Assembly: GCA_949289995.1 (NCBI GenBank)
Contig: CASEQE010000028.1
Coordinates: 1-40,949 of the forward strand
Source: an uncultured Peptococcaceae bacterium
Lineage (GTDB): Bacteria > Bacillota > Dehalobacteriia > UBA4068
Direction: 5' to 3'
DNA length: 40,949 bases
Shown: positions 19,802 through 39,224 of the stretch, in pieces
How the letters are laid out: the number at the start of each line of letters is the position of its first letter
Position numbering within the stretch: the first letter of the stretch is position 1
The notes under the pieces: model-generated
What the model saw: the letters and a program-made list of their open reading frames with translations, nothing else
Database searches by the model: none
What the model was told of the DNA's origin: nothing
Program-made: the position numbers and the translations under genes

Positions 19802-22333
19802 TTATGCGGTTTCAATACTATCGGCCTCATGAAGGTTCAACATCGTTACCGCCTGCTCTCTCATTTTATACTTAAGAATTTTACCTGCCGCATTCATGGG
19901 GAAAGAATCCACAAATGCAACATAACGCGGGGTTTTATGTTTCGCCATATGGCTACGCACATAATCTTTGATCTCATCTTCGCTCGCACTTTCCCCATCT
20001 TTTAGAATAATGCAAGCCATAATTTCTTCCCCATATTGTTTATCCGGTACGCCGATTACTTGTACATCCGATACTTTAGGATGGGTATAGATAAAATCTT
20101 CAATTTCTTTGGGGTAAATATTTTCACCGCCGCGAATAATCATATCTTTGATCCGCCCGGTAATTTTATAGTTGCCATTTTCATCCTTGCGCGCCAAATC
20201 ACCCGTATGCAGCCAACCGTCCTCATCGATTGCGGCGGCAGTTGCCGCAGGCATTTTATAATATCCTTTCATGATATTATAACCTTTGGCTACAAATTCC
20301 CCATCGACGTTTGGCGGCAAATCTTCACCGGTTTCCGGATCGACGATTTTGCAAGTAACGCCAAAAATATCGCTACCAACCGTATTCACCCGTACATCGA
20401 TAGAATCGGTAGTTTTGCTCATGGAACAAGCGGGAGAAGCTTCGGTTTGCCCGTAAGTAATGCAAATTTCTTTCATATTCATTTTTTCTATAACGTCTTT
20501 CATTACTTTGATGGGGCAAGGACTACCTGCCATAATACCGGTTCTCATATGACTAAAATCTGTACTGGGGAATAATTCATGGTTTAGCATGGCGATAAAC
20601 ATGGTCGGCACGCCATGAAAAGCGGTAATTTGTTCCTGATTAATGCATTGCAAGCTAATAGCGGGCGAGAATGCTGGGATAGGACACATGGTCGTGCCAT
20701 GGGTCATCGCCGCCGTCATCGCCAAAACCATACCGAAACAATGGAACATCGGGACTTGTATCATCAGCTTATCGGCTGTGGACAAATCCATACAATCGCC
20801 AATGGCTTTACCATTATTCACCACGTTATAATGGGTAAGCATTACGCCTTTTGGGAAACCGGTTGTGCCGGAAGTGTATTGCATATTGCAAACGTCTCGA
20901 TTATCGATAACCGCCGCCCGGCGATATACGTCCTCTACCGGTACTTTTTCCGCTAAAGCAATGGCCTCGTCCCAAGTGTAACAGCCTGGTTGTTTGGAAT
21001 CGACGGTAATGATATTACGTAAAAACGGTAATCTTTTGATATGCAGCGGTTTACCAGGTTGGGCATCTGCTAATTCTGGACACAATTCTTTGATAATGGA
21101 AACATAATCGGAATCTTTGTATCCATCGATCATCACCAAAGTATGGGTATCCGATTGCCGTAGCAAATATTCCGCCTCATGAATTTTATACGCTGTGTTC
21201 ACCGTTACCAAAACCGCGCCAATTTTCGTTGTAGCCCAAAACGTAATAAACCAAGCCGGTACATTGGTTGCCCAAATAGCCACATGAGAGCCGGGTCTGA
21301 CGCCCATAGCGATCAAACTGCGGGCAAACGTATCCACGTCATCCCGAAATTCCGCATATGTGCGGGTATAGTCTAAGGTCGTGTAGCGGAAAGCATATTG
21401 ATTGGGAAATTCATCAACCATTCTGTCTAAAACTTGCGGAAACGTTAAATCGATCAAATGTTCTTTTGGCCATACATATTGTCCGGTGCCTGCCTGGCTA
21501 TAATATAATTTGGAACTTTTGGTCCCTACGGAAATATATTGACTCATATAGTTGGCATAATGCGGGAATACGATACCCGCATCGCTCAAATCCGGCGCAT
21601 AGCTTTTTAGCCACTCAAACGTAATATAACCGTCATAATTAATTGAGCGCAAAGCCATCATAATTTCGGAAATCGGGATATCGCCCTCCCCCATCATTTT
21701 ATATTTTACGCTTCCGTTTTCCATAACTGAATCTTTGATGTGGATATACTTAATAAATGCGCCTAAATTGTTTAACGTTTGATCTGGTGTTTCTTGGTGG
21801 AAGCGTACCGGATGATGCACATCCCATAAAGCAGCTACTGCGTCGCTGCTGGCTTGCGTTAACACTTGCGCCAATCTGGCGGTATCGCAATAGGCGCCGT
21901 TGGTTTCTACCAAGAGAATTACATTATGCTCCTCCGCATAAGGGATCACTTGCCGCAAATAATCCAAAACCACTTGATCGTCTACTTCTTCCATAGGCGC
22001 GGCTTTCGCCTCGCAAAGCAGCCGAATATATGGCGTGCCTAATTTAGCTGCCAAATCAATATATTCCTTAATCTCCACAATCGTTTCCGGCATCTTCTCT
22101 TTTTTGTTCAGACAACAACCGGAAGAAAGGCAAGGGATTTCCAAATGTAATTTTTTCAACGTCGCAATGGTTTGCGGTAAGTATTTATCTTGGAAAGGCT
22201 TAGCATGTACGGAAAAAACGCTATCGCCTAAACCTCTAAGCTCAATACCAGAAAAACCAAAATCTTTCGCCATAGAATACATGTCCGACCAATCAAAATC
22301 CGGACAACCAAGCGTAGAAAAAGCCAATTTCAT
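19802..22333 (-). CDS. Fusion: sugar-isomerase-like TIM barrel + AMP-forming acyl-CoA synthetase
   Basis: This is an 843-residue two-part protein. Residues 1-265 form an AP-endonuclease-2/xylose-isomerase-like TIM barrel. Its putative metal ligands are E143 (VETN), D171 (WDVHH), H198 (IHIKD) and E240 (FEW). Residues from about 290 form an adenylate-forming CoA ligase: P-loop TSGTTGFPKG (487-496), YGQTEASP, WLHTGDL, the hinge GRIKDMIIRGGENIYP, and the adenylation lysine K818 in NAAGKILK. The ligase resembles medium/short-chain fatty acyl-CoA synthetases. The barrel's reaction is unknown. GGAGG lies 8 bases before the ATG. The gene stands alone behind a leucine-type T-box, so expression should rise when leucyl-tRNA is uncharged. 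That points to an anabolic or salvage role such as isovalerate activation, which is inference. Confidence 0.9.
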   Translation of the reverse strand: MKLAFSTLGCPDFDWSDMYSMAKDFGFSGIELRGLGDSVFSVHAKPFQDKYLPQTIATLKKLHLEIPCLSSGCCLNKKEKMPETIVEIKEYIDLAAKLGTPYIRLLCEAKAAPMEEVDDQVVLDYLRQVIPYAEEHNVILLVETNGAYCDTARLAQVLTQASSDAVAALWDVHHPVRFHQETPDQTLNNLGAFIKYIHIKDSVMENGSVKYKMMGEGDIPISEIMMALRSINYDGYITFEWLKSYAPDLSDAGIVFPHYANYMSQYISVGTKSSKLYYSQAGTGQYVWPKEHLIDLTFPQVLDRMVDEFPNQYAFRYTTLDYTRTYAEFRDDVDTFARSLIAMGVRPGSHVAIWATNVPAWFITFWATTKIGAVLVTVNTAYKIHEAEYLLRQSDTHTLVMIDGYKDSDYVSIIKELCPELADAQPGKPLHIKRLPFLRNIITVDSKQPGCYTWDEAIALAEKVPVEDVYRRAAVIDNRDVCNMQYTSGTTGFPKGVMLTHYNVVNNGKAIGDCMDLSTADKLMIQVPMFHCFGMVLAMTAAMTHGTTMCPIPAFSPAISLQCINQEQITAFHGVPTMFIAMLNHELFPSTDFSHMRTGIMAGSPCPIKVMKDVIEKMNMKEICITYGQTEASPACSMSKTTDSIDVRVNTVGSDIFGVTCKIVDPETGEDLPPNVDGEFVAKGYNIMKGYYKMPAATAAAIDEDGWLHTGDLARKDENGNYKITGRIKDMIIRGGENIYPKEIEDFIYTHPKVSDVQVIGVPDKQYGEEIMACIILKDGESASEDEIKDYVRSHMAKHKTPRYVAFVDSFPMNAAGKILKYKMREQAVTMLNLHEADSIETA

Positions 22334-22380
22334 ACAAAAATCCTCCTGCTTCTCTGCAATAATCTGTTTTCTGAATACGC

Positions 22381-22425
22381 AATATAAAAACGCTTTCGTC
22401 TCCTAGATCAAGAGACGAAAGCGTT
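22381..22425 (-). terminator. T-box regulatory terminator
   Basis: A perfect 14-bp stem (22389-22402 with 22412-22425) has a 9-base loop and is followed by TTTTTATATT on the minus strand. It competes with the T-box antiterminator immediately upstream. Confidence 0.9.
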
Positions 22426-22668
22426 GCTTCCGCGGTACCACTCTTGTTGGTATGTGCACATACCCTCTTAAAGCATCCATTAATGCCTTCCATTGATAAC
22501 GGGAGGAACCCCGTCCAAGCTTACTATAAATTTTCTGCTTGGCCGCTCCAGGGCGAGCGTAAATTATGTTTGGGGCTGCCTCGCACCAACCGGCAGTTCT
22601 CTGTACCACAACACATAACCTTTTTTCCCTATCATAGCGTTTATATAATATGCAATTGATCGTGTATG
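22381..22668 (-). promoter_or_regulatory. T-box leader (tRNA-sensing riboswitch), specifier CUC (leucine)
   Basis: All T-box parts are visible on the minus strand. Stem I has a CGCT/AGCG base, a K-turn, an AGGG/CCCT helix, an AGAGA bulge and a GGTTGGTGCGA distal loop. The antiterminator motif AAGAGTGGTACCGCGG spans 22430-22445, and a terminator follows. The 3' side of the specifier loop ends CTC-G just before CCCT, so the specifier is CTC at 22555-22557, a leucine codon. The T-box bulge TGGT expects discriminator A, which tRNA-Leu has. Uncharged tRNA-Leu would stabilise the antiterminator and turn on the barrel/acyl-CoA synthetase gene. The specifier comes from hand folding. Confidence 0.9.
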
Positions 22669-22674
22669 GATAAA

Positions 22675-22703
22675 AATATATCAGGATTTTTACCCTTTGT
22701 CAA
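22675..22703 (-). promoter_or_regulatory. Promoter of the T-box transcript
   Basis: Minus-strand TTGACA (22698-22703), 17-base spacer, TATATT (22675-22680). The -35 element overlaps the TGA stop of the upstream symporter gene, so this transcript starts right at the end of the previous gene. Confidence 0.85.
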
Positions 22704-24280
22704 GAGTAAATATTCTTTTTTGCCGACTCGCCGGCAAAATCTTTCCATTTTTTATTTTTAAATGTAAGCGAACTCTTTTGTGGCACCAAAACCACTTCCT
22801 CGTAACTGGCAAAGAGGCTTTCCGTATAGGTTTTATCTATGGGTTTGGTAATCAAACTCACCAATGGAACCACAACCAAGCCGATAACCATGGCCAAAGC
22901 GCCGGCATTAATCGGCGACTCGATAAATTGTAAGAAAATATTGCTGACAGTTAATGCGACGCCGGCAATAAAACTGGCCCATACGGCAGCTTTGCTGACG
23001 CGGCGCCAATATAGACCATACAGGAACGGCGCCAAAAACGAACCGGCCATAGCCCCCCAAGAGATACCCATCAATTGCGCGATAAATGTAGGCGGATCCA
23101 AAGCCAATGCTACGGATATAGCAATAAAGAAAACGATTAATAAGCGCATAATCAGCAATTGACGCTTTTCACTCATATTCTTCATGCAGGTACCTTTTAG
23201 GAAATCTAAGGTTAACGTAGAGCTAGAAGTTAGAACCAAAGACGATAAGGTCGACATGGATGCCGATAACACCAAAATCACCACGATACCGAGAAGAAGA
23301 TCGGGCAAACTGGAAAGCATATAGGGAATAATGCTATCATAGATCACCGTTTCTCCTTCACGAACGGCCGGGCTGTCAAATAAGCGGCCAAATCCACCCA
23401 AATAGTAGCTGCCGCCAGCCACGATTAAAGCAAACACCGTGGAAATAATCGTCCCCGTATTGATCGTTTTTTCGCTCTTAATCGTGTAAAACTTATGCAC
23501 CATTTGCGGCAACCCCCAGGTGCCTAAAGAGGTCAAAATAATCACGCCTAACAGATTAACCGGATCGGGACCAAAAAACGACGTATAAGCGCCGGCTTGG
23601 CCCAGGGTAGGCGTCGATTCGCTGGGAAACTGCGAAAGTTGATTCACAGCGGCAAAAAATCCGCCTTGACCATTTAATACGGCGGTAATGACGGCGACGA
23701 TACCAAATAGCATAATGATACCTTGAATAAAATCATTGATCGCCGTTGCCATGTAACCGCCTAAAATCACATAGGCGCCGGTTAAAACCGCCATTGCAAT
23801 TACGCACACGGCATAAGGAATATCAAAAGCCATACCGAAAAGACGAGATAAACCGTTGTATACGGAAGCCGTATAGGGAATCATAAAAATAAAAATGATC
23901 GCCGATGCAACAATTTTTAAGGCTTGGCTTTGATACCTTTTGCCAAAAAAATCCGGCATAGTGGCTGCCGATAAATGATGGGTCATAATCCTGGTACGTC
24001 GGCCTAAAATCACCCAAGCCAATAGGCTACCAATTAAAGCGTTACCAATACCAATCCAAGTGGAAGCCAAACCATATTTCCAGCCAAATTGTCCGGCATA
24101 ACCCACAAACACGACGGCGGAAAAATAGGAAGTCCCGTAAGCAAAAGCGGTTAACCAAGGACCGACGTTACGGCCGCCCAAAACGAAACCAGTGACGCTA
24201 AGCGTATGTTTGCGTGCATATAAACCGACGATTAACATTACGCAAAAAAACAATACCACCAAGAGAATTCTGATAGTCAA
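22700..24280 (-). CDS. Sodium:solute symporter (SSS family)
   Basis: About 526 residues with some 12-13 membrane helices in the SSS (PutP/PanF/SglT) fold. It has the family-typical GGRNVGPWLTAFAYGTSYFS in the first helices and the conserved ILVLSASMSTLSS segment, whose serines line the Na2 site. The substrate (amino acid, carboxylate or vitamin) cannot be told. The start is moved to TTG 24280: GGGAGG lies 8 bases upstream, while the longer frame's TTG at 24304 overlaps that site. It has its own promoter, and a 42-codon ORF lies in the leader. No terminator separates it from the T-box leader. Confidence 0.9.
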   Translation of the reverse strand: MTIRILLVVLFFCVMLIVGLYARKHTLSVTGFVLGGRNVGPWLTAFAYGTSYFSAVVFVGYAGQFGWKYGLASTWIGIGNALIGSLLAWVILGRRTRIMTHHLSAATMPDFFGKRYQSQALKIVASAIIFIFMIPYTASVYNGLSRLFGMAFDIPYAVCVIAMAVLTGAYVILGGYMATAINDFIQGIIMLFGIVAVITAVLNGQGGFFAAVNQLSQFPSESTPTLGQAGAYTSFFGPDPVNLLGVIILTSLGTWGLPQMVHKFYTIKSEKTINTGTIISTVFALIVAGGSYYLGGFGRLFDSPAVREGETVIYDSIIPYMLSSLPDLLLGIVVILVLSASMSTLSSLVLTSSSTLTLDFLKGTCMKNMSEKRQLLIMRLLIVFFIAISVALALDPPTFIAQLMGISWGAMAGSFLAPFLYGLYWRRVSKAAVWASFIAGVALTVSNIFLQFIESPINAGALAMVIGLVVVPLVSLITKPIDKTYTESLFASYEEVVLVPQKSSLTFKNKKWKDFAGESAKKNIYS

Positions 24281-24313
24281 CTTTATTACCTCCCAAAAAA
24301 TCAAATTCGTGCA

Positions 24314-38976: not shown

Positions 38977-39202
38977 ATATGCATTTTCCATAAACCATCG
39001 CTTCAAGACCTGTGATGCAGGATGGTTAAAATACAGGCAGGTATTCCGACTCAGAAGTCTTCGCTAATGTTTCGCCTTCCCGTAAATCAATTACAGTGAC
39101 CGTTTTACAACATGAAACACAGCTCGTTCATTACGGCAACAGGTTTGTTTAGGATTTGCACCTAATTCCCTATTAATGCATAAAAATGCAACCATGTATT
39201 TT
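38977..39202 (-). promoter_or_regulatory. Cobalamin riboswitch
   Basis: The aptamer spans 39028-39202, closed by a perfect 8-bp P1 (39195-39202 with 39028-39035). The B12 box AGTCGGAATACCTGCCTG is at 39034-39051. The upstream conserved strand GGGAATTAGGTGCAAATCC is at about 39151-39170. A possible antiterminator stem, AACCATC/GATGGTT, follows. Adenosylcobalamin should switch off the whole cbi-hem operon. Confidence 0.93.
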
Positions 39203-39224
39203 TTAACTCTATTCAATTGGAGAT

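Follow-up and report, generated by a model that had tools for sequence, protein, structure and literature searches.

An acyl-CoA ligase fused to a TIM barrel is encoded behind a leucine-class T-box leader in an uncultured Peptococcaceae bacterium. We consider it probable, at roughly 0.73, that this tRNA-Leu-sensing T-box controls a ligase that most likely activates isovalerate for leucine synthesis, and that it belongs, as the one for leucine, to a wider set of T-boxes and ligases. The T-box, its leucine specifier, their conservation and the gene neighbourhoods were computed; the substrate of the ligase, the direction of flux and induction are inferred. Isovaleric acid is a product of fermentation from which bacteria of the gut, rumen and sludge can make leucine. 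Since the 1960s it has been known that isovalerate, isobutyrate and phenylacetate serve rumen and gut anaerobes as precursors of leucine, valine and phenylalanine.

In the mechanism we propose, a shortage of leucyl-tRNA would allow uncharged tRNA-Leu(GAG) to pair with the CUC specifier and the UGGU bulge of the leader, the antiterminator would form and the fusion gene would be transcribed. The ligase would then produce isovaleryl-CoA, a step inferred only from the T-box class and the gene context. A VOR/POR-class 2-oxoacid:ferredoxin oxidoreductase, inferred from gene neighbourhoods, would add CO2 to give 4-methyl-2-oxopentanoate, and a transaminase would convert this to leucine. Separate T-boxes would serve CoA ligases of the Ile/Val (MbcS-like), Phe (PaaK), Tyr and Trp classes, in places controlling the oxidoreductase and transaminase as well.

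The leader and the gene lie on the minus strand of the window, the whole stretch of 40,949 nucleotides that was analysed. The RF00230 model matched over its full length (1-219) at 22408-22644, from Stem I to the antiterminator/terminator switch, with 128 bits against a gathering score of 93 (E 3e-28). Only three T-boxes were found in the 1.83-Mb draft genome, and this leader scored best. The Rfam alignment places the specifier on CUC, a leucine codon (22555-22557), followed by one purine and then a CCC that pairs with a 5' GGG to form the base of Stem I. The T-box bulge region (22431-22450) carries UGGU at 22440-22437, the element that pairs with the tRNA NCCA end. The genome encodes a tRNA-Leu with anticodon GAG whose 3' end, ...CCGCA-CCA, has A as its discriminator (A73), matching the bulge. 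The intrinsic terminator (22389-22425) has a 17-bp stem and a U-run (-24.6 kcal/mol, z = -7.1), and its fold and that of the antiterminator exclude each other, with the same 3' strand used by both. A ribosome-binding site, AGGAGG (22342-22347), stands ahead of the ATG at 22333. A possible sigma-70-type promoter at 22675-22703 consists of TTGACA (22703-22698), a 17-nt spacer and TATATT (22680-22675). It has 11 of 12 consensus matches, but as shuffled sequences give matches of this class about equally often, the call is suggestive only.

The preliminary description, made from the letters of the window alone, had placed a promoter, stem I, antiterminator and terminator before a single gene, and had read by hand a CUC specifier and a TGGU bulge suited to the A discriminator of tRNA-Leu. 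All of these elements are present and correctly placed, the promoter by consensus only, and the specifier and bulge readings hold. The T-box upstream of the fusion gene is thus confirmed as real and complete, while tRNA-dependent antitermination itself is inferred.

A scan of genome contigs gave 80 orthologue loci with 69-79% identity, almost all named Clostridia or other Bacillota. An nhmmer profile found a T-box upstream in 48 of these and none ahead of the other 32, with a clear gap between matches and non-matches. Many leaders were misread by a simple manual rule for specifiers, and the codons were taken instead from a multiple alignment in which gene function was not used. The 48 readable sequences, the window included, have 42 CUC and 6 CUG specifiers and no other codon. 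As both codons encode leucine, leucine specificity has survived synonymous change. The comparison of orthologous leaders that the preliminary description had proposed, like the Rfam run it had also proposed, therefore agrees with its leucine assignment. Some loci and genomes are the same organism (for example L020/G008 and L016/G032), so the counts are slightly redundant. No gene neighbour recurred across the 80 loci, which indicates that the fusion is usually a stand-alone unit. In the window it seems to be monocistronic; the next gene, a Ca-type P-ATPase, begins about 400 nt further on.

The fusion gene (19802-22333) encodes a protein of 843 residues, identified from domain and family profile matches. 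Residues 1-285 (21479-22333) form a xylose-isomerase-like TIM barrel and residues 286-843 (19805-21478) an AMP-forming acyl-CoA ligase; the Pfam domains are AP_endonuc_2 (22-243), AMP-binding (304-692) and AMP-binding_C (743-818). The ligase half qualifies for the ANL superfamily, with PF00501 at 298 bits and PF13193 at 72 bits, above cut-off, and the catalytic motifs TSGTTG (487), YGQTE (627) and GKILK (817). Its closest named family is NF009233 (PRK12583, fatty acid CoA ligase), whose cut-off of 832 bits it did not meet (700.7), and MbcS (NF047394) was not among its best 25 NCBIfam matches. The acyl-CoA synthetase domain noticed earlier is therefore there, but its fusion partner had not been identified. 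That partner, the TIM barrel, matches PF01261 with 96.9 bits against a cut-off of 31.1, and its model (pLDDT 89.6) resembles D-allulose, D-tagatose and L-ribulose 3-epimerases, IolI and AsbF. It shares the fold and the metal-ligand set of the D-tagatose/L-ribulose 3-epimerase, AsbF and IolI barrels, but is only 13-19% identical to its structural matches and is fused to a CoA ligase. The metal ligands E143, D171, H198 and E240 are each at least 98% conserved in 80 aligned fusion sequences, in which mean identity is 0.80 for the ligase half versus 0.58 for the TIM half.

The protein does not fit the isovalerate reading in every respect. The route from isovalerate to leucine has no step for the TIM barrel. 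We also counted against this reading the 32 orthologues without a T-box and the nearest family of the ligase, which is a general fatty-acid CoA ligase and matched below its cut-off.

T-boxes on other ligases and oxidoreductases follow the same pattern. The T-boxes of two bacterial families, the window's own and that of G032, were aligned in one set. All fusion leaders in it read Leu, and the control specifiers came out correctly: ACC in 13 of 13 thrS leaders, trpB and ileS, and valS, metS, leuS and pheS, these last four genes being named from sequence. MbcS-like ligases had 13 Ile and 4 Val specifiers (L309 and L109 counted), with the codons AUC, GUC or GUA; MbcS is the best family match of these ligases in the relatives, below the MbcS cut-off. 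PaaK T-boxes had Phe specifiers (UUC, n=4, one read by a one-column shift), and those of another ligase had Tyr specifiers (UAC, n=5, two read by a one-column shift). An Ile T-box (AUC) twice stands directly before an OFOR operon with the gamma subunit first (L118, L121 (L187)). In L188 (1043-4967) a Trp T-box (UGG) precedes iorA, iorB and a PaaK-like ligase, an operon that suggests tryptophan made from indoleacetate.

No Leu T-box was found on any MbcS-type ligase, only Ile or Val specifiers. Characterised MbcS prefers 2-methylbutyrate and isobutyrate, and isovalerate is a poor substrate (PMC10026030). This fits the Ile/Val T-boxes on MbcS-like ligases and leaves isovalerate and leucine to a different ligase. 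We read the whole set as a putative T-box-controlled regulon through which fermentation acids are reductively carboxylated to give amino acids, a reading with no enzyme assay behind it; the single case picked out in the preliminary description looks like part of this wider regulon. At L131, L125 and other loci the MbcS-like ligases with Ile/Val T-boxes have an N-terminal HTH and cupin fusion, which is odd for a metabolic enzyme. In the second family, aminotransferase-like genes, named from sequence, have Tyr T-boxes (UAC) at L248, L274 and L292.

Gene neighbourhoods in relatives connect the ligase with oxidoreductases. In G014, G015 and G016 the two halves are encoded by separate neighbouring genes, 57-59% identical for the ligase and 40-42% for the TIM barrel. 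After this pair come four OFOR subunits in the order gamma-delta-alpha-beta, with alpha and beta nearest to the PorA and 2-ketoisovalerate types. G016 also has ilvD-type and ilvH-type genes (named from sequence) just upstream on the same strand. A separate ligase-TIM pair is found again in G006 and G075, a NifJ-type OFOR adjoins the fusion in G074 and L067, and in G084 a CUC T-box stands directly ahead of a ligase without the TIM barrel. The order in G093, L309 is a Val T-box (GUC), an MbcS-like ligase, a Leu T-box (CUC), a LeuA-like gene, the fusion, a branched-chain aminotransferase (BCAT; 486 bits, cut-off 307), an AAA gene, VorB (529 bits, cut-off 399) and VOR beta; G093 lacks leuB. Judged from its gene families, the run behind the leucine T-box contains a near-complete predicted set for activation, carboxylation and transamination. 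LeuA-like genes adjoin the fusion in G074, G086, G093 and G110. The LeuA-like-linked fusions L191, L198 and L307 have lost TIM metal ligands, with K at 143 in all three; in two of them, position 171 is S or N. Since metal ligands are lost in some such fusions and the G084 ligase has no TIM barrel, the barrel may be auxiliary. A degradative role for the fusion was considered and rejected because T-boxes switch genes on under starvation and the neighbours are BCAT and biosynthetic genes.

The window genome is 92% complete, and its gene content was checked by single-family searches only. In these neither leuB (best match 36.6 bits against a cut-off of 353) nor a stand-alone leuD was found, the latter giving only aconitase-type PF00694 matches, and the test for a canonical LeuABCD set (leuB and leuD present) was not met. 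The genome does have leuA (TIGR00973, 645 bits), adjoined by a VOR cluster of VorB alpha (531 bits, cut-off 399), beta, gamma and an aminotransferase, and ilvC (452 bits) in an ilvBNCD-type cluster whose other genes were named from sequence. G007, of the same genus, is without ilvC, leuB and stand-alone leuD, and OFOR genes are kept in both G007 and the window genome, G000. The carriers are mixed, however, some lacking leuB or leuCD and others having a full leucine operon, so the fusion is not simply a replacement for LeuABCD. We dropped replacement as a general statement, as among the carriers the presence of a T-box and the absence of leuB do not coincide one to one.

Of the 14 leuB-less carriers examined, 11 retained LeuA in the absence of LeuB and LeuCD, one of the 11 being a contig-end fragment. 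Full-length LeuA is present in G000:C9, G007, G027, G032 and others, in which LeuB or LeuCD was not detectable. Together with the LeuA-like gene in the G093 run, this hints at another use for LeuA. In G020, G023 and G030 a type-II LeuA (named from sequence) precedes LeuC, D and B, and T-box cores lie upstream; an argument from the absence of LeuA in these three genomes was dropped when the type-II LeuA was recognised. The suggestion that the ligase activates isovalerate for reductive carboxylation is supported by the OFOR neighbours, the G093 run, the absence of leuB and the parallel pairs of T-boxes and ligases, but is not proved by this context.

The same genes allow a different starting acid. 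The ligase might activate isobutyrate or mixed branched acids, with VOR making 2-oxoisovalerate and LeuA taking it onward, so that the Leu T-box controls entry to the ordinary route. LeuA adjoins VOR in G000 and G009, the LeuA-like gene shares the G093 run with the fusion and VOR, and among named VORs the 2-oxoisovalerate type comes nearest. We nevertheless think this unlikely, though it survives best of the alternatives. The ligases of the MbcS type carry Ile/Val specifiers and no Leu T-box was found on them, the absence of leuB and leuCD in many carriers means that known genes could not complete the ordinary route, and the window genome, whose ilvC lies in an ilvBNCD-type cluster, needs no isobutyrate to make 2-oxoisovalerate.

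It could also be that the TIM barrel takes part catalytically in a leucine route not yet described, acting with LeuA or a LeuA-like protein, the ligase and VOR in bacteria without LeuB and LeuCD, with leucine T-boxes controlling them all. We regard this as doubtful, and less probable than activation of isobutyrate.

Only slightly weaker is the idea that, in leucine shortage, isovaleryl-CoA from the fusion goes into iso-branched membrane lipids rather than into leucine itself. S. aureus MbcS serves lipids in this way with 2-methylbutyrate and isobutyrate (PMC10026030). The runs of genes with OFOR and BCAT speak against it, as do the T-boxes placed directly on OFOR and IOR genes and the Phe, Tyr and Trp T-boxes on ligases whose products are not known to serve in lipids.

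We give still less weight to LeuA or a LeuA-like protein, the TIM barrel and the ligase forming an undescribed route to leucine that does not start from isovalerate. The retention of LeuA in those 11 carriers, the LeuA-like genes beside the fusion in four genomes and the intact metal site of most TIM barrels would all fit. However, there is no chemically obvious path from 2-isopropylmalate, the metal ligands are lost in some of the very fusions linked to LeuA-like genes, and the Leu T-box of G084 serves a ligase with no fused TIM barrel. A last possibility, that the T-box has decayed or arose by chance and plays no part in expressing the fusion gene, has nothing in its favour beyond the absence of an expression test. 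The full-model match, the strong terminator and a specifier that varies across many Clostridia yet still encodes Leu leave it next to no credibility.

The proposed activation of isovalerate for leucine under a leucine T-box combines parts of known kinds, as the T-box, the ligase class and the carboxylation route each are. The leader has the Stem I with CUC, the antiterminator/terminator switch and the UGGU bulge of the leucine-class T-boxes of leuA, leuS and ilv-leu operons, but controls an acyl-CoA ligase fusion and not a synthetase, a LeuABCD gene or an amino acid transporter. MbcS (S. aureus; NF047394) activates short branched-chain acids, as we predict for the window ligase, and its relatives with Ile/Val T-boxes occur in the same bacterial families, but the window ligase belongs to a different family and isovalerate is poor for MbcS. 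PaaK (TIGR02155) is a separate family whose relatives with Phe T-boxes have an analogous predicted role starting from phenylacetate; in aerobes PaaK feeds degradation. The preliminary description was right that the route itself is known in anaerobes: leucine synthesis by carboxylation of isovalerate is established in the rumen (PMC7356843, citing Allison 1962 and 1966), and that rumen and ruminococcal route has the activation, reductive carboxylation and transamination that we predict here. Amino-acid-matched T-boxes on CoA ligases or oxidoreductases of reductive carboxylation were not found in the T-box surveys and wider literature searched. Prior mention is not excluded because the key T-box surveys of RNA 2008 and MMBR 2009 lay outside the literature covered.

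Each ligase is labelled by its T-box specifier in a direct and testable way: Leu for the fusion, Ile/Val for the MbcS-like ligases, Phe for PaaK and Tyr/Trp for others. From the literature searched we know of no earlier naming of dedicated activating-ligase genes, or of tRNA-based control, for the rumen isovalerate route, nor of genes assigned to such ligases for isobutyrate and phenylacetate. If our reading is true, these genes predict which bacteria depend on their neighbours' fermentation acids, and explain why apparent auxotrophy for branched-chain amino acids may be misleading in some genomes.

Two other loci in the window deserve mention. An SSF symporter is encoded at 22700-24304 on the minus strand, just upstream of the T-box promoter; relatives with 60-66% identity in the other family have Tyr T-boxes (L249, L250) and one lies near PaaK in L073, and the protein is possibly an arylacetate or amino acid transporter. 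A cobalamin riboswitch (RF00174, 95.9 bits) lies at 39019-39212 on the minus strand, ahead of cbiM, cbiQ and an ABC ATPase, which are followed by the tetrapyrrole genes for GlutR, methylase-HemD and ALAD.
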